This document shows, piece after piece, positions 15,260-37,953 of a stretch of 50,132 nucleotides of DNA (position 1 is the stretch's first letter; each line of letters begins with the position of its first letter). The notes under the pieces are model-generated. The model was not told where the DNA came from. It was given only the letters and a program-made list of their open reading frames with translations, and ran no database searches. Origin of the DNA: Clostridia bacterium (GTDB lineage Bacteria > Bacillota > Clostridia > Lachnospirales > JAOARL01); assembly GCA_025210555.1 (NCBI GenBank), contig JAOARL010000003.1, positions 1 through 50,132 on the forward strand, written 5' to 3'. A program made the translations under genes and the position numbers.

Positions 15260-15280
15260 TTTATCACCTCTCTAATTTAT

Positions 15281-15316
15281 AAAAACCTCTACAATATTAA
15301 ATTAATTGTAGAGGTT
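15281..15316 (-). terminator. terminator after the pilin-like pair
   Basis: On the minus strand AACCTCTACAAT (15305-15316) pairs perfectly over 12 bases with ATTGTAGAGGTT (15284-15295), followed by TTTTTAT. It follows the stop at 15332 and would cap transcripts that begin at the promoter at 16203-16232, leaving some read-through to the downstream genes. Confidence 0.85.
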
Positions 15317-15331
15317 ATCTCGCTTTATTTA

Positions 15332-15742
15332 TTACATTTCAGTTAATACTATTTTTTCCATTTCACCATCTGGATTTACAGTGTTTTTTCTTTTAAAATA
15401 TCTTTGATTTAAATCATTATTATCAATTGTATCTCTAACTGTCTCTAAATTTGTTTCATCTGTTACATAAGCATCTCCAACTTTTCTGTTTATGCTTATT
15501 TCTATATCATTTGTTCCATCCCCTGGATTTGTATCTTTTATTTCCTCATCTGCTATAGTATAAGTTAAATCTATAATACCATCACCAGATATTCCACCTT
15601 TTGATGCATTTGTAATATTGTTAATTTGATCATTATTAGCCTCTCCAGCTTGTAATGCCTTTTCATTATTTGGTAAGATTACCCCTACAAATAGTCCCAT
15701 AACTACTCCTAACATAATTACGGTTGCCATGATTTTTTCCAT
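15332..15742 (-). CDS. short pilin-like protein, second of a pair
   Basis: The 136-residue product has an N-terminal hydrophobic helix (IMATVIMLGVVMGLFVGVIL) and a hydrophilic C-terminal domain (KALQAGEANNDQINNITNAS onward). The class III signal expected of Flp or type IV prepilins (Gly or Ala followed by a hydrophobic run with Glu at +5) is not evident. It is paired with the equally long neighbour at 15755-16165, twelve bases away, and the two lie between their own promoter and a strong terminator, as expected of abundant subunits. AGGAGG lies eight bases before the ATG. A major or minor pilin role is inferred from size, topology and context. Confidence 0.55.
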   Translation of the reverse strand: MEKIMATVIMLGVVMGLFVGVILPNNEKALQAGEANNDQINNITNASKGGISGDGIIDLTYTIADEEIKDTNPGDGTNDIEISINRKVGDAYVTDETNLETVRDTIDNNDLNQRYFKRKNTVNPDGEMEKIVLTEM

Positions 15743-15754
15743 TATTTTTTCCTC

Positions 15755-16165
15755 CTAATTAATTGGTATAAATATATATCTTTCAACATCACCGTCAGCA
15801 TCTTCCTGTCTAGACTGAGTAAAAGTCTTATCTAGAAAGTCATAATCATCATAGTCATCTAAAACGTCTCCTATTCTACCCGAATCAGCTGCATAACTAT
15901 ATACGCTTCCGTCAATTTCAATTTCTACTTTAGACATATGTCCTTCTAACATATACTTAAGAATTCCTCTTATATCAGATCCTTTTACTTCTGCATCAAC
16001 ATCCTCAACATCAACCAACGAATTTGTTTTTACTTTTCCTGTATCAACAATCGTTTCTGATGCACCTCTGATGAATCCCATACTATCTCTAAATAATGCT
16101 ATTGCCATTAATAGAAGACCTAATATTACAGCTCCAATTAAAACCTCAAAAACTATCTCTTTCAC
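15755..16165 (-). CDS. short pilin-like protein, first of a pair
   Basis: This 136-residue protein starts with GTG and has GGAGG seven bases upstream. Residues about 5-25 (VFEVLIGAVILGLLLMAIAL) form a membrane helix; the remainder is acidic and soluble, with SYAADSGRIGDVLDDYDDYD near the middle of the C-terminal domain. It shares length, topology and the C-terminal sense of the partner at 15332-15742 (both end in an Arg/Asp/Glu-rich segment followed by a short beta strand), which suggests an old duplication. No prepilin peptidase site is obvious. It is the first gene of the unit driven from 16203-16232. Confidence 0.55.
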   Translation of the reverse strand: MKEIVFEVLIGAVILGLLLMAIALFRDSMGFIRGASETIVDTGKVKTNSLVDVEDVDAEVKGSDIRGILKYMLEGHMSKVEIEIDGSVYSYAADSGRIGDVLDDYDDYDFLDKTFTQSRQEDADGDVERYIFIPIN

Positions 16166-16202
16166 TTCCAGACCTCCTCACTTAAGGTTTGTTTTCTCCT
16201 TA

Positions 16203-16232
16203 ATTTTACTATATTCTCTCTTTTTGTGTCAA
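16203..16232 (-). promoter_or_regulatory. promoter of the pilin-like pair
   Basis: TTGACA (16227-16232) and TAAAAT (16203-16208) on the minus strand are 18 bases apart, in the 71-base gap after the TadC-like gene. Together with the terminator at 15281-15316 it makes the two 136-residue genes a separate unit. Confidence 0.65.
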
Positions 16233-16236
16233 TAGG

Positions 16237-17385
16237 CTACATATTAAAATCACTAAAATTATAAGCTGATAGCCATGGTTGTAACATATATCCTATTATA
16301 AGAAGTATTAAAACTATAAATCCAACTACTCCCCACATGTTTATCATTTCAACTTGTTTCTTTATTTTTCTAGTTTCAACACGTTTTTCAAGTTCAAACT
16401 CATTTTTTATATTTAAAATAGCTTGATCAAAATCGTAGTTATTTGCTTCGTCTAACTTTTCATAGAAAAGTTTAATATTTATATCTTTTGCTCTTGATAT
16501 ATAACCTTTATAGATACTAGTATTATCTATATAATTTCTTTTATTTAAATCTTCTATATCTTTAAGCATATTTTTATGATACTTTGATTTTTCAATTAAA
16601 TCCTTTAAAAGATCCATAAAGTCTACCGGCTTTATACTTCCATTCATTATTATGAGTCTTTTTAAGAATCTAAGCTCTCTTCTAGCATCAACACCTGCAA
16701 AGAAATTATAAAGAGCTACATATATTTCTGGTATAAAGTATACAAAAGCCAAAATTAATAGCTGAACCGTTCTATTTATTTCAAAGGTACTATTATAAGC
16801 TTCTATTCTATAATATATTCTATTAGCTAATTCCTCTACTGTTACGTTATGTTTTTCTTCATACTTATCTCTAATATCATAATATATTCTTTTCTCTGCT
16901 CTTTGTTTCGGCATTGTTTTAAGTTTTTCAGCTTCTCCTTCTTCAATGTAAGCTCTCAAAAAACCTTGTTCTTCTATATATATTTCATGCGCTTGTTCAG
17001 GTGTAAGTCCTTTTTCTCTAACGCTATATATAGCATCTACTTCAAACGCTACATGATTATATATTTTATTTAAACTATCTGCTATATTTGTTTGCTGTAT
17101 CCCTATTAATAAAACAACAACAAACATTGCCAGGTAAAACTTAATTCTAAAAAACTTTTCAACATCTGTATTACCTAAATATCTTAAGAATACTTGGTAC
17201 TTATGATGAATACTCCAATCTTTAGAAGGCACAAATATATTTGCAATTCTCATTATAGTTGCTTGAATAAAATTAGTTTTAAAATCTAATTGTTTTATAG
17301 ATTTTACTTTAAGATGATTTTTTCTTTCAAACATATATCCAACAACTATTACAATTGCTACTATTAATATTAATAAATATCCCAT
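16237..17385 (-). CDS. tadC: TadC-like pilus assembly platform protein
   Basis: TadB and TadC are paired inner-membrane proteins of the T2SF/GspF fold that transmit the motion of the TadA ATPase to the pilin. This 382-residue protein has membrane helices at the extreme N terminus, near residue 90, near residue 215 and near the C terminus (GVVGFIVLILLIIGYML), with a charged helical cytoplasmic domain between (KRLIIMNGSIKPVDFMDLLK). It is slightly longer than usual. It follows the TadB-like gene by 12 bases with AGGAGG before the ATG. The family call rests on topology, order after tadA and tadB, and general pattern; it could equally be called a second TadB. Confidence 0.65.
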   Translation of the reverse strand: MGYLLILIVAIVIVVGYMFERKNHLKVKSIKQLDFKTNFIQATIMRIANIFVPSKDWSIHHKYQVFLRYLGNTDVEKFFRIKFYLAMFVVVLLIGIQQTNIADSLNKIYNHVAFEVDAIYSVREKGLTPEQAHEIYIEEQGFLRAYIEEGEAEKLKTMPKQRAEKRIYYDIRDKYEEKHNVTVEELANRIYYRIEAYNSTFEINRTVQLLILAFVYFIPEIYVALYNFFAGVDARRELRFLKRLIIMNGSIKPVDFMDLLKDLIEKSKYHKNMLKDIEDLNKRNYIDNTSIYKGYISRAKDINIKLFYEKLDEANNYDFDQAILNIKNEFELEKRVETRKIKKQVEMINMWGVVGFIVLILLIIGYMLQPWLSAYNFSDFNM

Positions 17386-17397
17386 TTCTTACACCTC

Positions 17398-18411
17398 CTA
17401 AGCCTTTCTCTCTAAGAATAACATTGATCCAACATACATTATCATAGCTATTATTATTGCTATTTTATATTGTATAGCCCCTGTTGTTGAATAGAATTTA
17501 ATCGCTTCTTCACCTAATGCATGTTCATTAAAAATTTCTATTCCTCTTATACTAAATGGTATAAGCAATGATAACAATATATATGATCTTGTTGCTGCCG
17601 TTAAGTCTTTTTGATTTTCTATAGATACTAATATATCTTCTGTTGCTGACTCAAATTGATGTTTTATAGTCTCGCTTCCACCTTTGAAGTGAGCTTGCTT
17701 TATTAGATTTAAAAGCAATGTTAAATATTCATTTTTATATGTCTTTTCTATATCATCAAAAACCCTATCTATTTCTGACATATCATTTTTCTTAAGCACA
17801 TCGTATATTTTTCTCATTTCTCTTTTTATAGACTTATCAAAATCTCCCATTGATATATTAATAGCCTTTAATATATTTCCAGTATTTATATATCTACTGT
17901 TAAGTATTTTAAAAGTATCTGGAAGTTGTCTTGTAAAATGAGATATCGCCATTAATGAGAATACATACATTATTAGTACTAAGAATCCAAATGCTAACCC
18001 TATTGTGAATAATGCTACATACCAAACAGTTATCTTAGAAGGCATAAATAACATTAACATTATAAGAGCAAACACAAATGTTCCAAGCCCTAACATTGTT
18101 GCATATTCCATATTTTTCTCTTTCGAGTACTGAGTATACATACCTATTTTTACAGCTAGATTTGATAATATTTTTTCCATAAATTTAATCTTTTTCAAAT
18201 CTCTTGTTAAATATGTAAAGAATCCCTTTTTATTCTTTTTAATCAAGTACTCTCTCTTCTTTTGGTTATACTTTATTTGAGCTTTAATATAAGTCCAAAC
18301 ATATATAGCCGCAACAAAGAGTAATACTATATAAAAGAAATTAGTACTCAAAAACGATGATAGGTTTGTTAAATTAGAAATAACACCTACCCCTTGAGCT
18401 GATCCACCCAT
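17398..18411 (-). CDS. tadB: TadB-like pilus assembly platform protein
   Basis: The roughly 337-residue integral membrane protein has an N-terminal helix (FFYIVLLFVAAIYVW), a pair of helices near residues 105-165, and C-terminal helices (KIAIIIAMIMYVGSMLFLE). The cytoplasmic T2SF-type domain includes LLLNLIKQAHFKGGSETIKH, typical of TadB proteins. It sits directly after the TadA ATPase gene and before tadC, the standard Tad order. The ATG at 18411 is preferred to a GTG at 18420, because that GTG is part of the AGGTGAG ribosome binding site. Role: platform for pilin insertion driven by TadA. Confidence 0.75.
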   Translation of the reverse strand: MGGSAQGVGVISNLTNLSSFLSTNFFYIVLLFVAAIYVWTYIKAQIKYNQKKREYLIKKNKKGFFTYLTRDLKKIKFMEKILSNLAVKIGMYTQYSKEKNMEYATMLGLGTFVFALIMLMLFMPSKITVWYVALFTIGLAFGFLVLIMYVFSLMAISHFTRQLPDTFKILNSRYINTGNILKAINISMGDFDKSIKREMRKIYDVLKKNDMSEIDRVFDDIEKTYKNEYLTLLLNLIKQAHFKGGSETIKHQFESATEDILVSIENQKDLTAATRSYILLSLLIPFSIRGIEIFNEHALGEEAIKFYSTTGAIQYKIAIIIAMIMYVGSMLFLERKA

Positions 18412-18420
18412 TCTTCTCAC

Positions 18421-20097
18421 CTACTTTATTTTTGATTGTTCAAGTTTAAATTTTTCTTTAAAGTTATTTATTGTTTCTTTTGAAACATATTTTGATACTT
18501 TGCTAAAATACGCATCTGTTGGTAAGTTAACAGGTATCCAAACATTTTTGTCTCTATCAAATCTTACAATTTCATTATATACATAATACTTACTATATAA
18601 GTATTTTGATATTGCCATTTGTGTCATATTCATTAGATTGTCAATTTTATCTTTTAATGTTCCATTCAATACTGGATCCATCTTATGATCTTGAGGAATA
18701 TATACAACTTCTACTATATTTTCAACTATTATTCTACCGTTATCAAGCTTAGCTAAGTGAACTACTAAATCTACCCCTCTAGCAATATCCGCTTCTGCTA
18801 TATCACTATCGTTATACATATCCGTTCTCATCATAAGGTTACGTAAGTTAACAACCGTTTCAAATGGTGAAAGTGAATGCAGTGTTGCCCCTACCCCAGA
18901 GTTAAGACGTAAGCTGGCATTTACTAGTTCAGCTACCTCATCTGGTTGAGTTATCTCCCCTACATATAATACATCTCTCGCCATCTTAAGCATTATTGCA
19001 AATGAGTTTTTAAGGTTTACCTGCTCATTTTCTATAATAGTTAAAACATTTTTCCAAGGATATTTCTTTTTAGCTTGAAGCTCATCCTGTTTATCCAGAA
19101 CTCCAATCCCCCAAATATTGGGAACTTTTTCCATCATAGCTAGCATGAATGTAGACTTACCAACACCCATGTCAGATCCTGTAACGAAGTGAGATCCTCT
19201 TCCTGTTTGATTTATCATAATCATGTCATACATTAAATCATTTATTGTGTTGTATCTATCTCTCATCTCTTCTAAATTAATTTTATCTAAGTTGAATATA
19301 CGTTCATTGTAATACAAAGATCCTGAATCTGGAGTCGACTTAAATCCAGCAACCGTAATACGGCTTGAGTTAAGTTTTGATGTAACAAGAACCGGAGTCT
19401 GCTCATCATAGTTGTCTGCAGATTTTTGAGTTGTCTTCTTTTGTATATTCATTATTATACTTTCATTTCTGAAATGTAAAAACTTAAGATGTATTTTTCT
19501 ACCTCTAAAAACAATATAAATATAGTCTTTATCAATTATACCAATCTCATTTATATCATGATATTGAAGTGTATCTATACAATCTTGTCCATATTCTTTT
19601 GAATATATCATAGAAGCGATTAATTTAACTTTTGTTGAAAGTTCTTTAAAATGTTCTTTTATTGCAACTTCTTCTTTTATTACTACATCTAAAAGCATTT
19701 CATCATCAATACACGGAAACTCAACTTGCTTCTCCATATTTTCATTAGTATAAAAATGATTAACTAAAACTTGCTTTAAATCATAAACATCTAAAAGCAT
19801 TTCGAACAACACTTCTATACTATTATTTTTTATTGTATGGAAATCAACATAATTTGTAATATTATTATCTGTCAAATTATACTTTTGCATTAAAAGTCTT
19901 GAATATTGATTAACTAAATAAGCTTTTGCTGATCTATCTCCTAAAGATGCTTTATCTTTAAGCTCAGTGTAAAGTCTTATATCATTTTCAGCTTCTTCTC
20001 TTTTAATTTTAAATATCTCCATGTACTGATCTGGATCACCCAGAATAGCATCTAATTCTTTTGCCATACTGACAAAAGATACTGAATCTAGTAACAT
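18421..20097 (-). CDS. tadA: TadA-type secretion ATPase (VirB11/PulE superfamily)
   Basis: This is the hexameric motor that powers Flp/Tad pilus assembly from the cytoplasm. The 558 residues show Walker A as GSDMGVGKST (Lys314), an Asp-box-like region with VGEITQPDEV (Glu381), and the His box GATLHS (His407), all in the correct order. The N-terminal half (about 250 residues) is the variable helical domain. GAGGTG lies upstream of the ATG. It precedes tadB and tadC and follows a ParA-like gene by 16 bases. All catalytic residues I can recognise are present, so it should be active. VirB11 of type IV secretion belongs to the same superfamily, but the neighbours favour TadA. Confidence 0.88.
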   Translation of the reverse strand: MLLDSVSFVSMAKELDAILGDPDQYMEIFKIKREEAENDIRLYTELKDKASLGDRSAKAYLVNQYSRLLMQKYNLTDNNITNYVDFHTIKNNSIEVLFEMLLDVYDLKQVLVNHFYTNENMEKQVEFPCIDDEMLLDVVIKEEVAIKEHFKELSTKVKLIASMIYSKEYGQDCIDTLQYHDINEIGIIDKDYIYIVFRGRKIHLKFLHFRNESIIMNIQKKTTQKSADNYDEQTPVLVTSKLNSSRITVAGFKSTPDSGSLYYNERIFNLDKINLEEMRDRYNTINDLMYDMIMINQTGRGSHFVTGSDMGVGKSTFMLAMMEKVPNIWGIGVLDKQDELQAKKKYPWKNVLTIIENEQVNLKNSFAIMLKMARDVLYVGEITQPDEVAELVNASLRLNSGVGATLHSLSPFETVVNLRNLMMRTDMYNDSDIAEADIARGVDLVVHLAKLDNGRIIVENIVEVVYIPQDHKMDPVLNGTLKDKIDNLMNMTQMAISKYLYSKYYVYNEIVRFDRDKNVWIPVNLPTDAYFSKVSKYVSKETINNFKEKFKLEQSKIK

Positions 20098-20113
20098 TTA
20101 ATCACCTCTAAAT

Positions 20114-20977
20114 TTATCTCATAAAATATCTTCTTATAAGCTTAAGCTTATACTTTTTAAACATCTCAACCCATCTCTTGGCTGCACTTTTTTTTCTTTT
20201 TAATACCTTCTCTTTTAATACATAATTTGTATGTTTTCTAAATATGTACTCTACTATTTTTTCCATTTGGAATGTATAAGCTACATCTTCTATTCTTGTA
20301 CCTAATACAAAATTAAGTATTGACCCATAATTACACTCATTTATAAGGTCTAAGTTAAAGTCTAAGGTAAACACAGGCGAATCAAAGCCCATGTCCCTTA
20401 TCTCTTTCTTTATTTGTGTAACTTGATATTCAAGTTTTGCATAATCATATTTTTCAAAATATCTATTAACTACGAAAATTACTCTTTCTTTATGCTTTTT
20501 ATATCCTTCTATTTCGTCTATAAGCTTAACTACGCTCTTTATTGGATTAAGTACAACTATTATTGCATTTGATTTTTCAAAAAACATTTCTGAAGTTCTA
20601 TTATCTCCACTTATAGTATCTATTATTGCAAATTTATAAATTTCATTTGCATATTCCATAAGTGCCTTTATATTATCTTCTGTTACTTCAAAAAATCTAT
20701 GCGCCGCCATAATATCAATATTAAATTTAAGTTTCTTTACACAAGTTTCAAACGAATCTCTAGATAACAAACCTGAATTATGCAAGTTTATAAAATCGTC
20801 TAACCCTTTTGTAAAGTGAGCATCACTTAAGTAGTTTTCTATGTCTTTACAATATTTATTTATATCTACGAATATTATTTGTTCATTTTTTAAAATTTTT
20901 GTTATCATTGCCCCTATATTTATGGCAGTCACCGTTTGACCTAATCCTTTTCTTGGAGCCGTTACCGAAATAAGCAA
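20114..20977 (-). CDS. ParA/MinD-like protein with altered P-loop
   Basis: The fold is that of deviant-Walker ATPases (ParA, MinD, TadZ). The protein is 287 residues. The P-loop reads APRKGLGQTV, keeping the signature lysine (Lys10) but with Gln14 where the phosphate-binding lysine is expected, so ATP hydrolysis is doubtful. Further family traits are IIFVDINKY, KFAIIDTISGD and a late VVLNP. The basic C-terminal tail (KRKKSAAKRW...KLIRRYF) could bind membrane or DNA. The start is TTG with AGAGGTG six bases before it; a stop lies just upstream. It is located between the CpaB-like gene and tadA. A structural polar-localisation role, like that of TadZ, is inferred. Confidence 0.65.
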   Translation of the reverse strand: MLISVTAPRKGLGQTVTAINIGAMITKILKNEQIIFVDINKYCKDIENYLSDAHFTKGLDDFINLHNSGLLSRDSFETCVKKLKFNIDIMAAHRFFEVTEDNIKALMEYANEIYKFAIIDTISGDNRTSEMFFEKSNAIIVVLNPIKSVVKLIDEIEGYKKHKERVIFVVNRYFEKYDYAKLEYQVTQIKKEIRDMGFDSPVFTLDFNLDLINECNYGSILNFVLGTRIEDVAYTFQMEKIVEYIFRKHTNYVLKEKVLKRKKSAAKRWVEMFKKYKLKLIRRYFMR

Positions 20978-20996
20978 TTTTCACACCTCTTCCATA

Positions 20997-22001
20997 TTAA
21001 TTGTTAAGTGGAAAGTTTCCATTTGGCATAGTTGTAGCTGGCTTTGCAGCTGCATCTGCTGCTGCTTGAGCATCTAAAGCCTTTTTTACAGCACTTGATA
21101 AATCTATATCTTTTTGGCTATACCACTTTATAAACATCTTATCTGAATATTTCATTCTCTTGAATGAAGCTATTTGACTGTCTATTGTTCCACTTGAAGT
21201 TCTTTCAATACTATCCATAATTGCTAAAACTAAGTTCTTTGCTTGCTCATAACTAAATGTTACTCTTGCAGCTGGTTGTTCAGAGTTATTATACTTTCTA
21301 AGTTCTAACTTTCCTAAACCTTCTGCCATATTTAAATCTCTATATTCTTTTTCATTTACTGATAGAATTATTATTGCCGGATCATTAGTACCACTTTCAT
21401 CTGGAGCAATTAATTTTTCTACTCTTTTCTTAGCTGCAACAACTTCATAAGCACCATTTTCAAGGTTTACTAAAACGTCTACTTCTTGTCCTTCTTCAAG
21501 AGTTCCTGCTAAGAAGTTTGACACTTCATAATCTTTAAGTTTTTCATCGTTAGTTGCCCAAGATTTTCCTGAATTATCAATACTGCTTCTTAATATTTGT
21601 TCTTTTGCACTTAATGTTTCAGTTGTAAATTTCCCTTTAAGTCTAGCATTTTCAATTAATTCTTGCTTAACTCTACTTCTAGTACTCTTTTTACCTACAT
21701 CATCATTTAAAAAATATCCTGTATCTAATGTCGCTGTTATAGCTCCTTTTACTAAGAAACCTTCTACGTCATCTTTTGGAACTAACATTACATCAATTGA
21801 ATTGTTTATAATATCCTCTGTAATTCTTGTGCTTTGCTCAATTTCATTTGTTGCTGTTAATACCCATACAGCATCTTCCTTAAATGTCTTTTCCATTTCT
21901 ATTCTTACTTGTGGAATTCTTACCTCATTATAATAGAAGAATATTCCCGTTATTAGAACTAGAAAGAATGCAATAATTAAGTACGATCTTTGTTTTTTCA
22001 T
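20997..22001 (-). CDS. CpaB/RcpC-like SAF-domain pilus assembly protein
   Basis: The protein has about 334 residues, one N-terminal membrane helix (RSYLIIAFFLVLITGIFFYY) and an extracytoplasmic SAF-like part (ITEDIINNSIDVMLVPKDDV), followed by a beta-rich domain and an Ala/Pro-rich tail. CpaB/RcpC proteins act in the envelope at the pilus channel; in Gram-positive cells there is no secretin partner, so this one probably works at the membrane-wall interface. The ATG at 22001 has GGAG eight bases before it; a GTG at 22010 lies too close to the same site. It sits between two ParA-like genes in the Tad block. Confidence 0.65.
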   Translation of the reverse strand: MKKQRSYLIIAFFLVLITGIFFYYNEVRIPQVRIEMEKTFKEDAVWVLTATNEIEQSTRITEDIINNSIDVMLVPKDDVEGFLVKGAITATLDTGYFLNDDVGKKSTRSRVKQELIENARLKGKFTTETLSAKEQILRSSIDNSGKSWATNDEKLKDYEVSNFLAGTLEEGQEVDVLVNLENGAYEVVAAKKRVEKLIAPDESGTNDPAIIILSVNEKEYRDLNMAEGLGKLELRKYNNSEQPAARVTFSYEQAKNLVLAIMDSIERTSSGTIDSQIASFKRMKYSDKMFIKWYSQKDIDLSSAVKKALDAQAAADAAAKPATTMPNGNFPLNN

Positions 22002-22039
22002 ATTTACCACTCCTTATGTTTTTTTGACATTAATTTTTG

Positions 22040-24160
22040 TTAATTAAATAAATTTTTAACTTTTCTTCTCATGTTAAAACTTATTTTACTACAAAAATTA
22101 ACATATTCTTGTTTTTCTTTCTTGTTTAAGTATTCGTAACTTGGATTTCTATTTGCTAAACCTTTAAGCATAGCTTCATTATTTCCAGTAATCACATGCA
22201 AGTCCTTTATATTAATATTGGCATCATTTAAAATGTCACCAATAGTATTGTTTATATCATAATTATAAATTTCATGATAATCATTTACAACTACAACTAT
22301 GTTTTTAACACTATTTTTAATATTATTTATATACTGCTTGTGTTTGAATTTCTTTAATTCATTTTGATTTATTACAAGTATTACTAAATCTGAATTTAAT
22401 AATATTTCCCTTTGAACTTTCAAATCTAACTCACTTGAAACATCTATAATTAATTTTTCTTGAATACTTCTTTCTTGTTCTATAAGTCTAATTATATCAC
22501 AGCCATCAAACCTTGTCATTATCTCTGGATGCTCTGAATATACATATAAATTTTTTGTTATTTTTTGCTTTAATTTTGTTACATCATCACTTACTTTTAA
22601 TAAACTCATTGAATTAGCATAATTTTTTGGAAAATGGTAATAAATATCTTTGTGCTTATAATCAGAGTCTACAAGAACTACCCTTTCTCCATTTTCACTA
22701 AGCACCCATGCAATATTTGTTGCCAGATTTGTTTTTCCTATTCCTGATGCTCCAATTATTGATATAGTTTTAATCTGTTCTAATTCATATTCTGTATAAC
22801 CCTTATATTTTTTTGGCTTAACCAACTTTTTTCTAATTATCTTTTCATTTTCTGTAAAATTAGCTAATCCATCTTTTATCATTGCATATGTATGTTCATT
22901 AGATATACTATTTATATTTTTAATTTCTCTTTGATGCTTTCTAAGTTCTTTTTCAAGCTCCAGAACATCTATATTATCTTTTTTTACTATTGTTTCATTT
23001 ATAGTTTCCATAATATCTCTACTTTTAAGTTCATCTAGCATAACTAACTCTGCCGTTTTTATATCTGATGTATAATAAACGGTATTTTTAAGTAATAATT
23101 CATTCTCTATGAATTCTATATTTCTAGCAGAATAGCTTTTACTATATTTTTCATTTTCGTTCTTATATTCTTCTATACCTAAAACTGCTGATTTTAAAAC
23201 ATAATCATCAGATAAGTTGTTAAGAATAGTTTCATTCTCTTCTAGTTGATTAACCATATATATATCTTTTTGATTATCAACATTACTTATTGAACTAGCA
23301 ATCTCGTCTATCTTCTCTAATTCTTCTACCCTTACTTTCTGATTATCAATGTACTCTACTAGTATTTCTTCATCTTTTTGATTTTCTATAAATTCAACAT
23401 TTTCTCTGATGTAATCTGTCTTTTCTAAGTCATCTAAGATGCCTAGTTCATTTTCATAAGTATATGCTATGTTTTCGTTTTTGATATTTTCAACAAAGTT
23501 TATTGTTTTTTCAACATTATCCACATTTTCCAGCTTGTCTAATGTTAATAAGTAATCTTCCTTTGCCCTATTTGTGATATCTTCTTTTATATTTATTATA
23601 CTATCTATAGCCTTTGCTATTTCATCTTTATAATTAAGTTCTTCTATTTTAGATTCATCTTTATATATTACACTATACGTTTCAGGTTCCACTATCATTC
23701 TTATATTTTTAAGAACTTCTGGTTCGTCTTCATATAATTCCAAAGAATCAATAGCATGATCTTTATTACTATCTTGATAAAAGAATATTTCACCGTTAAT
23801 CATAAAAGATATATGTGACATAAATTCAATTTCTTCTTCAGTATCATCTTCTACTTTTGCAACTTCTTCAATATATTCTTTTACCTCTTTTATGACCTCT
23901 TCTTCTTTTGAAGTTATGAAGTTACTATTAATATATTGATCCTTTTCATCATCTTTTTCTGAATTATTTGCTTTGTTTTCATACAATTCATCAAAACTAC
24001 TTACTTCACTACTTTGTTTTGTATTTGAAATACTTTTGCTATATTTCATTATAGCTATTGTTAAAGCTAGCACCGTAAATATAATTTTCAGATCAACTAC
24101 TTCATCTATTTTAGAAAGTAAAATGCTCCAACCATGTAAAGCATTTATAAGTATTTCCAC
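22040..24160 (-). CDS. membrane-attached protein with C-terminal ParA/TadZ-like ATPase
   Basis: The 706-residue protein has a GTG start. An N-terminal hydrophobic stretch (LKIIFTVLALTIAIM, about residues 24-40) may anchor it. A long acidic Glu/Asn/Lys-rich helical middle (residues about 60-440) has no recognised domain. The C-terminal 240 residues form a ParA-type ATPase: GASGIGKTNLATN (Lys476), RVVLVDSDYKHKD and KLIIDVSSELD, here with an ordinary P-loop Lys. Its closest relative in the window is the 692-residue protein encoded at 24179-26257, whose ATPase shares the DxDxxxKDIxxHF pattern. It may localise or recruit the machine; that is inference from TadZ. Confidence 0.6.
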   Translation of the reverse strand: MEILINALHGWSILLSKIDEVVDLKIIFTVLALTIAIMKYSKSISNTKQSSEVSSFDELYENKANNSEKDDEKDQYINSNFITSKEEEVIKEVKEYIEEVAKVEDDTEEEIEFMSHISFMINGEIFFYQDSNKDHAIDSLELYEDEPEVLKNIRMIVEPETYSVIYKDESKIEELNYKDEIAKAIDSIINIKEDITNRAKEDYLLTLDKLENVDNVEKTINFVENIKNENIAYTYENELGILDDLEKTDYIRENVEFIENQKDEEILVEYIDNQKVRVEELEKIDEIASSISNVDNQKDIYMVNQLEENETILNNLSDDYVLKSAVLGIEEYKNENEKYSKSYSARNIEFIENELLLKNTVYYTSDIKTAELVMLDELKSRDIMETINETIVKKDNIDVLELEKELRKHQREIKNINSISNEHTYAMIKDGLANFTENEKIIRKKLVKPKKYKGYTEYELEQIKTISIIGASGIGKTNLATNIAWVLSENGERVVLVDSDYKHKDIYYHFPKNYANSMSLLKVSDDVTKLKQKITKNLYVYSEHPEIMTRFDGCDIIRLIEQERSIQEKLIIDVSSELDLKVQREILLNSDLVILVINQNELKKFKHKQYINNIKNSVKNIVVVVNDYHEIYNYDINNTIGDILNDANINIKDLHVITGNNEAMLKGLANRNPSYEYLNKKEKQEYVNFCSKISFNMRRKVKNLFN

Positions 24161-24178
24161 AGTAAGAGCACCTCTTTT

Positions 24179-26257
24179 CTATTGATTGTCTTTTTTTGTT
24201 AAATTTAAGAAGTCAAATATTTTCTTCAATGCGCTTTCTTCTTCTTGCGGCATATAATAAAAATTCATGATTTTCTTAATATCTTCTATTACTTTATTGT
24301 CTGTTTGATCTGTCGCTGGTTCTCTTGCTATCAATCCTTCTAGTATTGATTTATTATCTTCAGATACTGTAAATACATTTGTTACAGGTATGTCAAAAGT
24401 TGCATACTCATCAATTTCAATATCTCCAAAAAAGTTCTTTATTGTTTTAGAGTTTAAAAATTTAAGATCTTCGTATTTATTTATAATTACATCAACATTA
24501 TTATTTAAATACTTACTATACTTAAATAATTTTTGAGGTAATCTATTCATAATATTTACTCTTTGATCAACTACTATTAATGTGTTATCTGCAATTTCTA
24601 ATATATCATTAACGTAATCCGTATCTAAATGCTTACCTATGTCAATTATAACAACTTGTGATTCTTTTTTTGCAGTTGTTACAAGCTTGACTAAGTCATA
24701 CTTTGTAATTTCAACATCTTTATCCTTATGCTCTGAGAAAACTTTTAAGTTTTCATTAATATCTTGACCATAATCCATAATTCTACTATGATCACCAATA
24801 TTGCTCATACATCCAACATAATCTTTATTAAAATGGAAGAATATATCTTTATTTTCAAAATCTGTATCTATTAACACTGTACTTATATTTGCTTTACTAA
24901 ACTCATTTGCAAGATTGACAGCTATTGTTGTTTTACCCGTTGACTCTGGACTTAAAACAGCAAACACCTTTGTATAATCAGTTGGAACCTTATATACTTT
25001 TTCCTGCTCAATTTCTCTCATTATGCGAGTCTCTTCAAGCTTTTTTTGTTTTTCTTCTAACTCTTTTTGTTTTCTCTCATATTCTTTTTGGACTTTTTCA
25101 AGTTCCATTTGTTTAGATTGCATTTCTCTTTGTAATTGGTTTCTAAGTTCTGTTTCGCTTTCTATTGAAACTGTACTTGAATGTTTCGCAAGATCACTTA
25201 TTTTCTTTTTAGCTTCTTCAAGTTCTCTTTTTTCTCTTTCAAGCTTATCTTTATATTCCGCTTCAAGCTCTGCTTTTATTTTTTCTTCATTTGCTTTTGA
25301 TGCAGCTTTAGCTTCTTCAAGTTCTTTTTTCTCTTTTTCAAGTTTTTCTCTATATTCCGCTTCTACTTTAGCTGCAACTTCAGCTTTAACTTTTTCAGCA
25401 TCTTCTTTTATTTTATCTATTCTTGTTTTTTCTTCTTCAATCTCTACTCTTCTTTGCTCTAATTCTTTTTCAAGCGCTAATCTTATTTCTCTTTCTTTTT
25501 CTAATTCTTCTTTAGGTAAATTTGAATGCGAATTAACATTTTCTTCTAACTGTTTAAGATATTTTTCTTTTTCTGCAAGTTCTTGCTCTTTTTGATTCAT
25601 TTCATCTTCAAGCGCTTTTCTTAATTCTTCTTCTTTTTTCTTTTGAGCTTCAACAGCATTCTTTTGCATATCTTCTATTTCTTTTTGACGAGTTTCAAGT
25701 TCCTGTTGTTTTTTTAAAATTTCAGCTTCTAAAACTTCTCTAAGTTCATTAACTCTTTGTTGTTGCTGTTTATCTGTTTCTTCAGCCATTTCTTCGATTT
25801 GCTTTTGTCTCTCTTCAAGTTCTTGTTGCTTTCTCTCTATCTCTTCTTGCTCTTTTTCAAGCATTTCAGAGAAGTTGATTTTTTCATCGTCAACTTCTCC
25901 GTTTACTCTTAAGAACATTCTTTTATTATCCGCAAATGTTTTAGGATTATCTACTGCTTCAATGATTTTATTAACATCAATAGGGTCAAAAACTAAATCA
26001 TAGATAGCATATCTAAAACACATTCTTACTTCTGCTACTGCGTCTTCTTCAGTTAAATATATTATTCTTGTATTCTTTTGTCTTAAATAAAGGATTAGAT
26101 GCTCCATCTCAACATTTCCTACTAAATGTCTTGAAAGTATTACTATATCAAACGGGTTCTTTTGTAAAAACTCTCTATAGTTAACTATTTGCGAGTCTTT
26201 AAGCACCTCATTTAATTTTTTATCGAGCATATCATATCCTGTTGCTATAGCTATCAT
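24179..26257 (-). CDS. TadZ/CpaE-like protein with receiver-like domain, long coiled coil and ATPase
   Basis: TadZ/CpaE proteins have an atypical receiver domain and a ParA-like ATPase and direct pilus localisation. Here the N-terminal 120 residues resemble such a receiver (PFDIVILSRHL, RIIYLTEEDAV, YAIYDLVFDPIDV). Residues about 130-410 are a highly charged Glu/Lys/Gln coiled coil (EEIERKQQELEERQKQIEEM and repeats), and the ATPase follows with SPESTGKTTIAVN (Lys442) and STVLIDTDFENKD. The coiled-coil insertion between receiver and ATPase is unusual for the family and could span tens of nanometres. It is the first gene of the Tad section, with a candidate promoter and phased repeats just upstream. 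Confidence 0.75.
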   Translation of the reverse strand: MIAIATGYDMLDKKLNEVLKDSQIVNYREFLQKNPFDIVILSRHLVGNVEMEHLILYLRQKNTRIIYLTEEDAVAEVRMCFRYAIYDLVFDPIDVNKIIEAVDNPKTFADNKRMFLRVNGEVDDEKINFSEMLEKEQEEIERKQQELEERQKQIEEMAEETDKQQQQRVNELREVLEAEILKKQQELETRQKEIEDMQKNAVEAQKKKEEELRKALEDEMNQKEQELAEKEKYLKQLEENVNSHSNLPKEELEKEREIRLALEKELEQRRVEIEEEKTRIDKIKEDAEKVKAEVAAKVEAEYREKLEKEKKELEEAKAASKANEEKIKAELEAEYKDKLEREKRELEEAKKKISDLAKHSSTVSIESETELRNQLQREMQSKQMELEKVQKEYERKQKELEEKQKKLEETRIMREIEQEKVYKVPTDYTKVFAVLSPESTGKTTIAVNLANEFSKANISTVLIDTDFENKDIFFHFNKDYVGCMSNIGDHSRIMDYGQDINENLKVFSEHKDKDVEITKYDLVKLVTTAKKESQVVIIDIGKHLDTDYVNDILEIADNTLIVVDQRVNIMNRLPQKLFKYSKYLNNNVDVIINKYEDLKFLNSKTIKNFFGDIEIDEYATFDIPVTNVFTVSEDNKSILEGLIAREPATDQTDNKVIEDIKKIMNFYYMPQEEESALKKIFDFLNLTKKDNQ

Positions 26258-26332: not shown

Positions 26333-26860
26333 TTATTCTACTATTTTTATTATCTTTCCATTTTTATCTAAAATAAATGTGAAAATATTTTCTTCGACAC
26401 TTTCTTCTTCTACTGCTGCCACATCTTTAATATCATCATTTTCAAATTCTTCAAACATCACTTTTACTTCATATGTTCCATCTTTTTTTAATACATTATC
26501 AATAACAGAAACCGTATCTTCATTTATAAAATCAAACCTATCGAATATTTCATCTGCAGTATTATTTGAAGTGTCAAATAATTCTAAAACTGCTGCGTCT
26601 TTATTCGAAACAAACAATATAAAATTATTTACTGTTACTTGCATAAGAATGTAGTTTTCTAAATTATCTCCTTGATGTTTTTCAACCTCACTAACATAAT
26701 TTTCTTTTATATTTTCAATTATCTCATTTTCAACTCTTCTACTTCTAAACTTCCCAAATATTACTAACAATAGTACAAGTACAGCTACGGTTATTCCCAT
26801 TATTAATTTCAAGTTTTTTCTTATAGCTATTTTGAAACTCATTTTTTTAAAACTATTCAT
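26333..26860 (-). CDS. small single-pass membrane protein, VirB8-like position
   Basis: I do not recognise the family. The 175 residues start with a basic tail, then a membrane helix (LIMGITVAVLVLLLVIFG, about residues 19-37), then a soluble extracellular domain of about 135 residues ending in beta-like FTFILDKNGKIIKIVE. Topology, size and placement after a VirB6-like gene resemble VirB8/TcpC-type T4SS proteins (short cytoplasmic tail, one helix, NTF2-like domain), but this is only structural analogy. Its ATG overlaps the end of the NlpC-fusion gene by eight bases, so the two are coupled. Confidence 0.5.
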   Translation of the reverse strand: MNSFKKMSFKIAIRKNLKLIMGITVAVLVLLLVIFGKFRSRRVENEIIENIKENYVSEVEKHQGDNLENYILMQVTVNNFILFVSNKDAAVLELFDTSNNTADEIFDRFDFINEDTVSVIDNVLKKDGTYEVKVMFEEFENDDIKDVAAVEEESVEENIFTFILDKNGKIIKIVE

Positions 26861-29800
26861 CTATAAAATCCCCCTTATATTTACTAATTCTAGGTTTACC
26901 AAAATATTTAAATCTTGATGGCTCATTGCCTTTAAAATAATCTTTTGGCTTAGCTGCTGATCCATCTGATATATTATAAGATACCAAAACTCTACCGTTT
27001 TTTCTCAAAGGATCTCCTGGAACTTTCCAAGTTTTCCCTCCCGCATGTATAAACATTTTATTTCCAGTTTCCTCATCAACACCTATATAAATACCAACAT
27101 GCTTTGCTTTTCCTTTTGAATTAGTATATGGGTTATCATAAAATCCTAAATCTCCGATTTCTAGTTCACTTTCTGAAACAATATCACAATTTTTGAATTG
27201 ACTATTAGCAGCTCCATTCATTTCATCACTTGAAATGAAGTGTTTGTAAACCCAGTGTACAAAACCACTACAGTCAAATCCAAATGGTTGATTACTTCCT
27301 GGTGGCTGATTTTTCTCATTTCCAGCAGCAGTTACTTCTTGTAAAGTAAACCACTTTTCATTATATTGTCCTGTTGTATATGTTCTTCCACCCCAGAAAT
27401 AAGGTAGTCCTAATACTGATGTAGCAACTTCTACAAAATCTGCTCTTTCAAACCTATCTCCAATTTGAGGTATGTTAAAGTTCTCTACAAACTGATTTAT
27501 TTCGCTTAAGTTTGCAAGTAGGTTATGTATGTTATTAGCGTTTTTATCTAAATATATCATGTATTCATTTGTATACCCTCTTATATCCGAATCTGTTCTA
27601 GGTACTATTGTTCTTCTAATAGAGTTTCTTCCACCTGGAAAATCATCTACAGTTTTTAAGTAAGTACCCATAGTATAATCAAATAATTGATAAGTATCTA
27701 AACCATAATATCTTCTTTTGTTATAGAACTCACCTCTCATACTATCTTGTAGTATTCTTAAAAATCTATCAGACTTATCTTCAACTTTAGTTAAAGAAGT
27801 ATCTTCTTGAATATATCTACTAACCGATGTTTCTTCTCTTACACCACTATAAGACACTTCTATTCTCACGTATCTATTCATATCATCAAAGCCGACATCT
27901 TCTAAATCTTCCATAAACTCTTCAAGTTCTTCTGTAATCTCTATGTCTGAGCTGTAATCACCCTCGCCTAAGCTTTCATGAGTTATATCTGGTTCATAAG
28001 TTTTTCTTTCAAATTCTTCATTTCTATCTAAAATCTGACTCTTTTTAAGTTCTTTTGGCTCTTTAACTTTTACTTTTTGCCTTACTTTATATGCTATATC
28101 TTTGTTTATAAACATGTCTTTCTTTGATTTTTCAAGGAAACTAGCTCTTGTTCTCGCAATTTCTTTGTCTACATATACTCTTTGATAATAATTCTCTGCT
28201 ACAAAATCTGGTTCATCCGTATCCTTAAAATATTTCTTACCATTATCTTTCTTATCTACCTCGAGATTATATATCTCAACTTTCATAGTAATTATATCTT
28301 TCACTTTATCTGTTTCATATTCATCAAGAGGGTTACCTTCAAATTCTGCTACTTCTGAAACTATTATTCCATCTTCATACTCTGGTTTGTAAATTTCACC
28401 ATCATCTTTTACGTACCAATCAACAATTTTATTTTTAACCAATTTCTTTGGATACTCTTTTCCATAATCAAGGAATCTATTATCAACAGCCTTAATTTTA
28501 TCTTCAACATTATTTATTCCTGTTTGATTAGGGAATATATATTCTTTATTAGTTAACAATCCTGAATCATATATATTATCTGTTGCCGGCTTATATATAC
28601 CTTTTAAAAACTCATCTAACTTTCCTGATTCATTAACTACAAAATGCTTTTTAAACGCTGCCACAAACTGCCAAGGTAATCTTTCATCATAATATATTCC
28701 ATATTGTTTCTCCTCAGGAACATAAGACTCATCTTCCTTTATGTGATCTGTGAATTTAGTACTCACCATTCTTTCTTTTCTTCTCCAAGCATCTTCTTCC
28801 ATATGACTTTCATATTCTTCATTTATTTCAATATGGTCTTTAATTATATCTACTTTTATAGCTCTATCTTCATATTCATCTTCATCATATGATTTTATTA
28901 GTTGGAAATATGTTGCTCTTTCCATATCTAAGAACTTTATCATGTCATTGTAATCTGTTAAAGCATCTTCTCTTATTTCATCCTTCTTGTTTTCTATTTT
29001 ATTTTCTATAAAATCATCAGTAATTTGATTTGCATCATCTATACTTTTATTAAGACCATCAATCCCACCAACTCCAAATTGACTTGATGAATTTGCATTA
29101 CTATTAACATTTTTCACTTCTGTTTCTGTTTTTATTCCAGCTTCTTTTTTAGCATCTTCAAGCGATCTTTTATCTGCTTCCGATAAAGCATTATCTACTT
29201 CAAGTTGAGCATCTAAAATTTCACCATAATCTTCTCCAGTTTTGTATTTAATACTTCTAGCTGCTAAATCCAGATACTCTTCTTCTCCCATAGATTTAAA
29301 TGCATCAATTGCTTTTTCTGCAAGTTCTGTACTAAGATTAAATACATCTTCATTAGATATGTTAGCCTTATCTATAACAATAGATGCCATACTAAGCTTT
29401 TTATCATAAGTATGTAAATTAAGCATAACTGAAACTATATACATAACTATAATTAGTACTGTAACTACCCATGTTATATAGCATATTGGTGGAGTAGTAA
29501 ATAATAATTTTATTAATTGCCAAAGTTTTTTAAATCCTTTTCCTATTTTCTTTAGTACATTTGCACCTCGTTGAACTCTTTTTTCAGCTTTCTTCTTTTT
29601 ATGTTCTTTATATCTTTTTTCTCCGTCTTTACCATGAACTCTTTTGAAGTTAGCTTCTTTCATTTTGTCCCATGTTCCTAATTTTCCACTTACAAAAGAT
29701 ACTACATTAAGCTTCGATCCAAGTCCTTTTGCCATGTTTTTCTCATCTATACCATGCATTCTTTTATATGGATTTACATATATAGAATTTCTAATAGTCT

Positions 29801-31775
29801 CTCCTATTTGTAGCGCTGCAATTAACCATATTGCATTATATATCCAGTTATAATCTCCTACATGAATAAATACTATAGCAAAAAACAATCCAATCGCATA
29901 TGCTATTTGCATTATCATATTTGAAACAAGTTCTTTTATCCATATTTCTCCCATTTCAACTTCTGGAGAAATTCCCCATAGAACCAAAGCAACTGGCGCT
30001 AATGGCAAGAATAAACTTATCATTACTTTTCTTACTGCTAGCATTAAAAATATATTAAATTCAATCCATACAAATATTGTTTTTAATATTACTGTACTAC
30101 CAACATCTCTTCCTGTAAGTATTGGCGCAATTTCTAAGGTATCATTTAACGGTATTGCATATGTCGCTTCTATTATAAATGACATTACAATTCTATATAA
30201 ATGTGGAAACATAGTTATTAAAAATATTGATGCAAGCCACCTTACATAAGAAGATTTTATTTTTTTCCTTTCAAATGCTGAAAATCCTTTTGATATATAA
30301 TCATAGCCTGTTTTAGCAACTATAACAATTATAAGCGGAAGTGAAAACGCCATTATTATTTTATATAATTTCATTATGCTATTCCACTCTGTAGGTGTGA
30401 ACGGTTCTATATCTAATATTCTTTCGCCTTCTTTAACCCTTAAGAATACCATTCTATCTATAGATGCATCACTTTTAAAAATCCACGTTTTACCATCTTG
30501 CAATATTTTTATTATTGAATTTAAAAATGAAGCAAAATTTCTATCAGTAAAGTTTTCTGGTTTTTCAAACTCACCATTACTATCTCTTTCAGCTTCAGCA
30601 ACCAAAGCAACGCTTGGATATTCATCTACATTTTCTTCATATCTACTAGTTCTCACAATATTCTCTTCAGTGATTGTTCTAAAGAAATTTCCAAACAATA
30701 CTAAGTTCGATAATATAAGACCTCCAATTGCAACGTACACCAAACTATACATAGCTTGTGCTCTTTCTGTTGGAGCCGCTTTTGATATCATCATTCTAAC
30801 TCCTATAGCTATTACAACTAAAAATATAGTTATAGGTCCTAATACTTCTATCAGAGATATTAATCTAATTATAATAGATGTATTATTATCCTTTATTGTT
30901 AATTTATCTATACCGATTTCATTTAATATAGTATGTTTCAGCTTTTCATCTTCAATCCAAAATTCTGCAACTTTCTTTTTGAGCTCAGCTCCTTCTTGAT
31001 CATATACTTTTTCAAATACGGTAATTTTAACTTTTTCAAATTTAGGAAATTTGTATATTATATAATTTCCTTCTGCATATATTCTTTTTTCTATACCCCT
31101 TGCATATATTTGATTTGTTATAATGTTATCTGTTTCTTCAAAACTAGGTTTACTATTTAAATACATTTTTTCAGTTTCAAGATCTAATTCCATTTTTCTT
31201 CCGTAATAATCTATATACTTTACAAGAGTGTCGTCAACTTTCTTAAAGTCTACTAACTTATTAATATCTTTAATGTCTAAATGGTCTCTTACTTTGTAAT
31301 AAAAAATTCCATTTTTTTCTTCATATATACTTATAATGATTCCCTTTTCTAAAGGATCTATTTCATATCCAAAATTATCATCTTCATCTTCTTTTGTTTC
31401 ATCTGATAAGTTTATTATTACTTCTTCTCCATTAAGTAAAGTATATTTAATTTTTATTGAACCTTCTTCTTGATATATTATTCTATTTTCATCATTAAAT
31501 TTTATATGTTCAATAACATCTGAAGCTTCATTGTATTTCTCTTTTAATATATCTTTTAATTTCTCAGGATATTTTGATTTGGTTATTTCTTTTTTCTCAC
31601 CATTAATAATAACTGAATACTTTCCGTTAACTAAATCTAATAGTTCGAAATTGTTTGATGTAGTTACAATTTCTCCACTAAAAGTTTCACTTAATTCTAT
31701 CTCTGCAAAGCTATTTAGAAAACCAATTGCAAAAACAAATAATATCCCAATTAAACTTTTATATAATTTATTCAT
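26853..31775 (-). CDS. giant VirB2/VirB6-like membrane protein with C-terminal NlpC/P60 peptidase
   Basis: The 1640-residue protein combines parts usually encoded separately. A signal peptide (LIGILFVFAIGFLNSFAE) and an extracellular region of about 280 residues come first. A two-helix unit with ERAQAMYSLVYVAIGGLIL (about 305-370) resembles TrbC/VirB2 pilins. A polytopic VirB6-like region (about 460-670) and another helix near 775 follow. The long external part ends in an NlpC/P60 domain with FDCSGFVHW (Cys1502), KHVGIYIG (His1559) and FIHAGG. Such domains cleave peptidoglycan peptides, so this could open the wall for the machine. It has its own promoter and overlaps the 175-residue gene. Confidence 0.8.
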   Translation of the reverse strand: MNKLYKSLIGILFVFAIGFLNSFAEIELSETFSGEIVTTSNNFELLDLVNGKYSVIINGEKKEITKSKYPEKLKDILKEKYNEASDVIEHIKFNDENRIIYQEEGSIKIKYTLLNGEEVIINLSDETKEDEDDNFGYEIDPLEKGIIISIYEEKNGIFYYKVRDHLDIKDINKLVDFKKVDDTLVKYIDYYGRKMELDLETEKMYLNSKPSFEETDNIITNQIYARGIEKRIYAEGNYIIYKFPKFEKVKITVFEKVYDQEGAELKKKVAEFWIEDEKLKHTILNEIGIDKLTIKDNNTSIIIRLISLIEVLGPITIFLVVIAIGVRMMISKAAPTERAQAMYSLVYVAIGGLILSNLVLFGNFFRTITEENIVRTSRYEENVDEYPSVALVAEAERDSNGEFEKPENFTDRNFASFLNSIIKILQDGKTWIFKSDASIDRMVFLRVKEGERILDIEPFTPTEWNSIMKLYKIIMAFSLPLIIVIVAKTGYDYISKGFSAFERKKIKSSYVRWLASIFLITMFPHLYRIVMSFIIEATYAIPLNDTLEIAPILTGRDVGSTVILKTIFVWIEFNIFLMLAVRKVMISLFLPLAPVALVLWGISPEVEMGEIWIKELVSNMIMQIAYAIGLFFAIVFIHVGDYNWIYNAIWLIAALQIGETIRNSIYVNPYKRMHGIDEKNMAKGLGSKLNVVSFVSGKLGTWDKMKEANFKRVHGKDGEKRYKEHKKKKAEKRVQRGANVLKKIGKGFKKLWQLIKLLFTTPPICYITWVVTVLIIVMYIVSVMLNLHTYDKKLSMASIVIDKANISNEDVFNLSTELAEKAIDAFKSMGEEEYLDLAARSIKYKTGEDYGEILDAQLEVDNALSEADKRSLEDAKKEAGIKTETEVKNVNSNANSSSQFGVGGIDGLNKSIDDANQITDDFIENKIENKKDEIREDALTDYNDMIKFLDMERATYFQLIKSYDEDEYEDRAIKVDIIKDHIEINEEYESHMEEDAWRRKERMVSTKFTDHIKEDESYVPEEKQYGIYYDERLPWQFVAAFKKHFVVNESGKLDEFLKGIYKPATDNIYDSGLLTNKEYIFPNQTGINNVEDKIKAVDNRFLDYGKEYPKKLVKNKIVDWYVKDDGEIYKPEYEDGIIVSEVAEFEGNPLDEYETDKVKDIITMKVEIYNLEVDKKDNGKKYFKDTDEPDFVAENYYQRVYVDKEIARTRASFLEKSKKDMFINKDIAYKVRQKVKVKEPKELKKSQILDRNEEFERKTYEPDITHESLGEGDYSSDIEITEELEEFMEDLEDVGFDDMNRYVRIEVSYSGVREETSVSRYIQEDTSLTKVEDKSDRFLRILQDSMRGEFYNKRRYYGLDTYQLFDYTMGTYLKTVDDFPGGRNSIRRTIVPRTDSDIRGYTNEYMIYLDKNANNIHNLLANLSEINQFVENFNIPQIGDRFERADFVEVATSVLGLPYFWGGRTYTTGQYNEKWFTLQEVTAAGNEKNQPPGSNQPFGFDCSGFVHWVYKHFISSDEMNGAANSQFKNCDIVSESELEIGDLGFYDNPYTNSKGKAKHVGIYIGVDEETGNKMFIHAGGKTWKVPGDPLRKNGRVLVSYNISDGSAAKPKDYFKGNEPSRFKYFGKPRISKYKGDFIDE

Positions 31776-31809
31776 AAATATACCATCCTTAGTCTATAAT
31801 ATCCCTTTA

Positions 31810-31841
31810 ATTATAACATTTAGCTCTTTCTTTTTCATCAA
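31810..31841 (-). promoter_or_regulatory. promoter before the NlpC-fusion gene
   Basis: TATAAT (31810-31815, minus strand) is preceded by TGT, an extended -10. A TTGATG lies 20 bases further upstream (31836-31841), a rather long spacing, so the extended -10 probably carries most of the strength. It lies just past the terminator at 31851-31879. Confidence 0.55.
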
Positions 31842-31850
31842 TTTTATTCA

Positions 31851-31879
31851 AAAAAATAAAACCACATGTGTGGTTTTAT
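31851..31879 (-). terminator. terminator between the two VirB6-like genes
   Basis: ATAAAACCACA and TGTGGTTTTAT form a perfect 11-base stem around CA on the minus strand, followed by a run of six T. It follows the stop at 31882 closely and splits the type IV secretion genes into two units. Confidence 0.88.
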
Positions 31880-31881
31880 CT

Positions 31882-37951: not shown

Positions 37952-37953
37952 TT

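Follow-up and report, generated by a model that had tools for sequence, protein, structure and literature searches.

The stretch of DNA analyzed here, referred to as the window, is a whole contig of 50,132 nucleotides (G000:C22; JAOARL010000003.1) from the 1.56 Mb genome of a Clostridia bacterium (GCA_025210555.1), the sole one of its family among the genomes searched, and it carries a Tad (Flp) pilus locus with three ParA/MinD-like genes denominated Z1, Z2, and Z3. The three open reading frames (ORFs), described in the original prediction as ParA/TadZ-like ATPases of a single pilus locus, were all present on the minus strand. Read 5' to 3' on that strand, the genes form one co-directional run of Z1, Z2, a CpaB-like protein, Z3, TadA, TadB-like and TadC-like proteins, and two pilin-like proteins, with intergenic gaps of 0-75 bp from the gene preceding Z1 through the pilin-like genes. 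Z3 directly precedes TadA with a gap of 16 bp, and within the run Z1 and Z2 come before CpaB. The features were as follows:

24179-26257, minus strand: Z1 (P0001, 692 residues), with a receiver-like N-terminus, charged coil, and ParA/MinD-like C-terminal domain (Pfam/NCBIfam profiles, hhalign, trees)
25913-26257, minus strand: Z1 residues 1-115, putative degenerate receiver-like domain (weak Pfam and hhalign matches; kept in 5/5 orthologues)
24983-25885, minus strand: Z1 residues 125-425, heptad-rich coiled-coil linker (heptad periodicity versus shuffles)
24926-24952, minus strand: Z1 P-loop SPESTGKTT, P-loop Lys present and signature Lys absent (alignment to MinD)
22040-24160, minus strand: Z2 (P0002, 706 residues), with a membrane helix, acidic linker, and ParA/MinD-like C-terminal domain; sister paralogue of Z1 (profiles, hhalign, trees)
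24047-24103, minus strand: Z2 membrane helix, residues 20-38 (Kyte-Doolittle 2.00)
22730-22753, minus strand: Z2 P-loop GASGIGKT, ordinary Walker A without signature Lys (alignment to MinD)
20997-22010, minus strand: CpaB/RcpC-like protein (NCBIfam pilus_cpaB E 6.3e-5, below cut-off)
20114-20977, minus strand: Z3 (P0003, 287 residues), minimal ParA/MinD-fold protein in the TadZ slot (profiles, AlphaFold2 model, structure matches)
20933-20953, minus strand: Z3 degenerate P-loop RKGLGQT, Gln for P-loop Lys (9/9 family members)
18421-20097, minus strand: TadA/CpaF motor ATPase (NCBIfam TadA-family ATPase E 7.2e-10, below cut-off)
17398-18420, minus strand: TadB-like platform protein (position and conservation; no library match)
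16237-17385, minus strand: TadC-like platform protein (position and conservation; no meaningful library match)
15755-16165 and 15332-15742 (span 15332-16165), minus strand: two small single-helix pilin-like proteins (no Pfam match)

Homologues of TadA, TadB, TadC, and CpaB co-occur in the locus, TadB and TadC being named by position and conservation. A look for prepilins and their peptidase returned these small single-helix proteins and, on another contig (G000:C29), a single A24 peptidase.

Domain architecture and nucleotide-binding motifs

The three proteins had been predicted to differ in architecture, and this held for the coil of Z1, the membrane helix and acidic middle of Z2, and the minimal form of Z3, whereas the receiver of Z1 was weakly supported. 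Judged by profiles alone, the C-terminal domains of Z1 and Z2 appear to be of the ParA/MinD (SIMIBI) ATPase type, an assignment supported by a Pfam CbiA match above its cut-off in Z2 (E 1.6e-6) and, below the respective cut-offs, by CbiA (E 3.5e-4) and NCBIfam CpaE_hom (E 1.3e-7) in Z1. The N-terminus of Z1 matched the Pfam receiver family below cut-off (E 0.0095) and canonical TadZ N-termini in hhalign (E 4.7e-4, probability 33%), compared with E 0.10-0.88 for four unrelated profiles. This domain has Ser for the phospho-acceptor Asp and "DP" for "KP", and single-sequence folding gave no usable fold (pLDDT, predicted local distance difference test, 38.9). Heptad periodicity over Z1 residues 125-425 was equalled by 1/500 shuffles, and the coiled-coil linker varies in length among relatives (proteins of 458-692 residues); the P-loop position and linker length of the G002 Z1 were excluded, a wrong GKT having been taken. 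Z2 has a membrane helix and no receiver at its N-terminus, the hydrophobicity of residues 20-38 being 2.0 on the Kyte-Doolittle scale (2.27-2.77 in the other four Z2 proteins), and its middle (residues 45-455) is acidic with 101 D/E versus 53 K/R. The Z2 linkers of close relatives (L039:14317-16638 and L041:6224-8845) are long charged repeats of differing lengths (RLEEV- and RQEEL-like) that look like single-alpha-helix tethers.

Z3 is receiver-less, its P-loop being placed already at residue 13. It matched NCBIfam MinD below the cut-off (E 3.5e-5) and Protein Data Bank entry 3ea0 by profile (E 4e-10). An AlphaFold2 model built with two relatives (pLDDT 72.7; predicted template modelling score, pTM, 0.76) had the ParA-family 3ea0 as its best Foldseek match (E 2.4e-11), with MinD and FlhG ranking next. 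In VIA, the model scored Z 21.4 to 3ea0 (root mean square deviation, rmsd, 3.0 over 230 residues) and Z 18.4 to 3fkq, the TadZ of E. rectale (rmsd 3.1 over 214 residues). VIA rows within 1 Z count as tied, and the fold class of Z3 is therefore fixed and its subfamily is not. A search with the TadZ_N family had no match in the source genome nor in any of 14 control genomes and was thus uninformative.

The proposal of three deviant-Walker ATPases stood in part, as a ParA/MinD domain was supported for each protein but the KGGxxK[S/T] signature was present in 0/3. Alignment to MinD assigned the Walker A as SPESTGKT in P0001, GASGIGKT (an ordinary Walker A) in P0002, and RKGLGQT, without the P-loop Lys, in P0003. 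Across five genomes, the P-loop Lys was present and the signature Lys absent in all orthologues of Z1 (5/5) and Z2 (5/5), giving 10/10 proteins. The Z3 family carries Gln for the P-loop Lys in 9/9 members; position 11 is basic in 8/9, L037 having Cys, and position 12 is basic in 9/9. The Walker A-prime Asp (D40 in MinD numbering) was retained in 10/10 Z1/Z2 proteins and is Asn in 8/9 Z3 proteins, while D38 and D120 were retained in all of them. Both lysines were present in 8/8 canonical TadZ rows (Bacillota and Arthrobacter) and an S. meliloti CpaE-like protein lacked the P-loop Lys; the loss of this residue has precedent because both that protein and BcsQ show it. A shared MinD-type tail for membrane binding was not supported as a rule for Z1 and Z3, the best 11-residue amphipathic window having beaten approximately 94% or more of shuffles in only 3/5 Z1 and 3/9 Z3 proteins.

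Relationships, selection, and conservation of the trio

Profile comparison tied all three proteins to TadZ (hhalign E 1e-8 to 1e-14). Z1 and Z2 matched each other with E 1e-56 to 1e-58, their next nearest being kinase-fused domains (E 1e-14 to 1e-18), and Z3 was nearest to Z3x (8e-22), M3 (2e-14), and canonical TadZ (1.5e-13). A careful tree of 63 rows and 251 columns was built once the faulty row L078_MinD (a wrong ORF with an end branch of 5.07) had been dropped after the first tree; L089 was left out as no P-loop motif was found, and L091 and the MinD-like L094-L098 were unused. The careful tree held a Z1+Z2 clade (100/97), and Z3 formed a clade in two trees (98/92 and 98/93). Two groupings were not starred in the careful tree, namely Z1+Z2 with the kinase-fused KA domains (80/90; 97/95 in the first tree with the faulty row included) and Z3+Z3x (63/90). 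A 95/91 branch separated 40 atypical domains from 23 TadZ, MinD, Soj, and FlhG rows.

These results place Z1 and Z2 as sister paralogues and Z3 in a separate clade of receiver-less proteins. The three are thus not equal TadZs: the approximately unbiased (AU) test rejected a grouping of Z3 with canonical TadZ (p 0.005), and three independent TadZ copies were ruled out by the hhalign comparisons and the trees. Unrelated families lacking a TadZ relationship were likewise not the outcome, given the profile ties and a joint Z1+Z2+Z3 clade that was not rejected (AU p 0.30). Strict Z1/Z2 orthology within the window lineage is unsettled, as neither Z1 nor Z2 was monophyletic in the best tree and forcing Z1 (AU p 0.34) or Z2 (p 0.225) together was not rejected. 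A quick tree of 89 rows from more loci united the KC and KD domains in one group (98) apart from Z1/Z2/KA (89), and the two upstream copies therefore seem to have arisen separately in two lineages. The three-gene layout was apparently duplicated independently in the second lineage, and a single origin of the three-gene set was not supported (KC/KD own clade, SH-aLRT 98).

All three genes are plainly under purifying selection, including Z3 despite its dead P-loop. Nei-Gojobori dN/dS ratios among G013, G031, and G043, which are rough as most dS values exceeded 1 and were near saturation, were 0.042-0.075 for the Z1 ATPase domain, 0.088-0.169 for that of Z2, and 0.081-0.097 for Z3, compared with 0.057 for TadA and 0.127 for TadB (one pair computed). 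Z3 as a decaying pseudogene was ruled out by its dN/dS of 0.08-0.10. Plain redundancy, with Z3 as the working TadZ and Z1/Z2 as duplicated accessory genes of little consequence, would account for the widely varying Z1/Z2 linker lengths and for the fast evolution of the window Z2 (end branch 1.5), yet it is very improbable with Z1/Z2 kept in 5/5 genomes at a dN/dS of 0.04-0.17 and an equivalent pair separately evolved in other loci.

Searching with the TadA protein gave a match in 71/295 genomes of the order, with a close orthologue besides the window only in G013, G031, G043, and G002. The order Z1-Z2-CpaB-Z3-TadA-TadB-TadC was kept in 5/5 genomes with an orthologous readable locus (these four and the window; the G002 locus is split across two contigs by a break inside TadA), which span three families (f1, f14, and f3). 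At E 1e-20 the Z3 profile was matched in 5/295 order genomes and in 4/391 class genomes, the latter being the window genome, G309, G401, and G545. Other loci (L035, L037, L058 in G401, and L059 in G309) have one large Ser/Thr kinase with a ParA-like tail replacing Z1 and Z2, and the minimal Z3 remains beside TadA. The Pfam Pkinase match was E 2.6e-51 in L035, where the kinase retains YRDMKPSN and DFG, and 1.2e-44 in L037, the two of the four loci scanned. Ser/Thr kinases fused to degenerate ParA/MinD-like domains were observed in the Tad loci at L035:1655-3304, L037:6656-8413, L046:11797-13425, and L049:3332-5029. A second Tad locus in G013, G031, and G043 encodes a kinase-ParA protein and a separate ParA-like protein of 263 residues before TadA, and G031 and G043 have an additional Tad locus with a canonical TadZ.

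A further 26 TadA loci of the order were examined (9, L061-L065 and L069-L072, plus 17, L111-L127), a non-random set mostly picked for window-like TadA. A Z3-profile match lay directly upstream of TadA in 24/26, six of these 24 being profile seeds (18/20 for non-seeds). Three ParA-like genes, i.e., a kinase-ParA fusion, a separate protein of approximately 195-228 residues, and Z3, were found in 12/26, three of the 12 being seeds of the second-protein profile. These 12 loci have a gene of approximately 270-370 residues between the second ParA-like protein and Z3 that scores as CpaB in only some, so the CpaB part of their gene order rests on position. The remaining loci had two ParA-like genes (9/26) or one visible (3/26, one at a contig end); L064 had a kinase fusion and second gene with no separate Z3 match, and L072 no ParA-like gene. 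A trio peculiar to the source genome was ruled out by the conserved order in relatives and these three-gene loci. The premise that Tad loci usually have one TadZ was borne out by the canonical loci seen here but not by the atypical subtype, which usually has two or three ParA-like proteins. L036 and L038 start in or near TadA and were not assessable, and the kinase part of L060 is cut off by a contig end. The Z3-like ORF L060:7451-8821 matches over its first 84 residues with an unrelated remainder, in keeping with a chimera in the metagenome-assembled genome, a frameshift, or a fusion.

The kinase fusions in L035, L037, L058, L059, L046-L049, and many order loci bring up signalling in place of positioning, whereby Z1 and its kinase-fused relatives would be input modules gating TadA activity and the ParA fold would serve for docking only, its nucleotide switching lost. 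The intact YRDMKPSN and DFG of the L035 kinase and the dead P-loops in most ParA domains of this subtype favor such gating; however, it is made doubtful by the complete P-loop and the two switch aspartates of 10/10 Z1/Z2 proteins and by a Z1 receiver without a phospho-acceptor.

A putative subdivided TadZ complex

The reading preferred here, to which a probability of about one half is given, is that the trio is a subfunctionalised TadZ/CpaE set acting as a joint positioning complex. Z3, a receiver-less and P-loop-dead ParA-fold subunit in the TadZ slot, would sit on the TadA motor; Z1 would bring a phosphate-dead receiver-like contact module; and Z2 would be the membrane-anchored subunit through its helix and long charged tether. 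The Z1 and Z2 P-loops are predicted to be able to hold nucleotide, and the three proteins may assemble into a mixed ring or cap to anchor the TadA motor at the membrane and time its action, taking the part that a single CpaE ring plays in Caulobacter. The input module would be interchangeable, a receiver here and a Ser/Thr kinase in relatives. From the slot, domain content, and motif pattern we infer that the subunits touch one another and ring TadA, and likewise their nucleotide states, the part that the tails play at the membrane, and positioning as the function. The heteromeric complex suggested in the original prediction is plausible, fitting the conserved gene order and the complementary motif losses.

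Several points weigh against a subfunctionalised set. The N-terminus of Z1 is weakly supported as a receiver-like domain, and a MinD-like amphipathic C-terminal tail surpassed shuffles in only part of the Z1 and Z3 proteins. Deep branches in the trees are long, some of them with weak support, and the degenerate domains could group together partly through long-branch attraction. In addition, the single large partner in L035, L037, G401, and G309 is itself without the P-loop Lys, and nucleotide switching by the partner therefore cannot be general.

A more specific version has Z1:Z3 or Z2:Z3 as obligate heterodimers with a composite ATP site, TadA ringed by asymmetric heterodimers, and the three-gene split TadZ having evolved at least twice. 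Z1/Z2 would give the P-loop Lys and switch Asp residues, and the basic residue at the signature position or next to it would come in trans from Z3. The motifs of window-type loci allow such a site, but it cannot be general because the partner in those four cases also lacks the P-loop Lys, and this version is judged unlikely.

Neighboring secretion genes and comparison with known systems

A type IV secretion system (T4SS) module lies upstream in the same run:

26853-39042, minus strand: T4SS pilin-like (38347), PrgI (37954), VirB4 (35305), VirB6-like (31882), and VirB6-like with NlpC/P60 (26853)

The VirB6 and pilin-like names were given by position and weak T4SS_pilin matches below the cut-off. 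This module and the Tad genes (13424-22010) constitute one co-directional run, a linkage that G013 and G043 share. The alternative in which Z1 and Z2, as homodimeric ATPases, would position the T4SS module, leaving Z3 alone as the TadZ of the Tad module, draws on their place between the T4SS genes and CpaB and on the PrgI, VirB4, and VirB6-like genes that adjoin the trio both in the window and in G013 and G043. Such separate clients are rather improbable, since a kinase-ParA occupies the same place beside the same Tad core in stretches with no T4SS match (L037, L058, and the second loci L046-L048), and across the examined stretches of the 26 order loci, 12 of which carry three ParA-like genes, neither VirB4 nor PrgI was matched.

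Other neighbors were a VirD4/TraG-type coupling protein beside ParA/ParB on the plus strand (48005-49981; Pfam T4SS-DNA_transf E 2.5e-41) and, in G013, G031, and G043, rsmG-ParA-ParB adjoining T4SS pilin-like genes. Downstream of the Tad genes (3416-13412) are two very large exported-looking proteins and two S-layer-homology-like proteins; both large proteins had 24% similarity to L106:12963-17357, an ORF near the canonical Tad locus of G043. IS3-like transposase ORFs were noted by eye at the contig end (98-1266).

The trio resembles canonical TadZ/CpaE in its ParA/MinD fold, the Z3 slot between CpaB and TadA, the match of the Z3 fold to E. rectale 3fkq, and the pairing of a putative receiver-like domain with a ParA-like domain in Z1. 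It differs in having three proteins rather than one, in a Z3 without receiver or P-loop Lys, and in Z1/Z2 placed upstream of CpaB without the signature Lys. Among other ParA-family proteins, BcsQ acts in cellulose secretion and McdA in carboxysome positioning. Two of the reports drawn on below, PMC6668835 and PMC3244431, are presumably those of Denise et al. 2019 and Imam et al. 2011, respectively.

In the accessible parts of the published sources, to which the following comparisons are limited, TadZ is described as one secondary ATPase of Tad (PMC6668835). For Caulobacter, a model places six CpaE dimers about the CpaF (TadA) hexamer, with receiver domains as the likely joints between them; an amphipathic helix binds CpaE to the membrane, and CpaE relocates to the CpaF base in the piliated state (PMC13170226). 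Altered Walker A motifs are known for BcsQ (RGGVGTT) and McdA (SGGQGKT) (PMC9178275, Table 1); here, in contrast, differing Walker A losses are distributed among three genes of a single operon. Atypical clostridial tad-like loci (PMC3244431) are likened to the window locus by description: they have homologues of tadA, tadC, tadZ, and rcpC that are distantly related to the remaining clostridial tad genes, and they show no clear prepilin motifs. Those parts of the report make no mention of several ParA-like proteins per locus or of kinase fusions. The T7SSf-h loci (PMC11217815) are similar in having a TadZ-like receiver, carried there by a different ATPase (TsfV), Tad genes beside a second secretion system, and kinase-like components, but the neighbor here is a T4SS (PrgI, VirB4) and not a type VII secretion system (T7SS), and three ParA-fold proteins are not described there. 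No description of several TadZ per locus, or of a kinase-linked TadZ, was found in the accessible parts of the open-access literature.

The linkage of Tad and T4SS genes raises the question of whether both machines work together. With receiver, membrane anchor, and motor-adjacent ParA fold on separate genes bearing different Walker A lesions, each role would be separable by single deletions. The repeated three-gene layout and the exchange of receiver for kinase suggest a general way to wire signals to the Tad motor.

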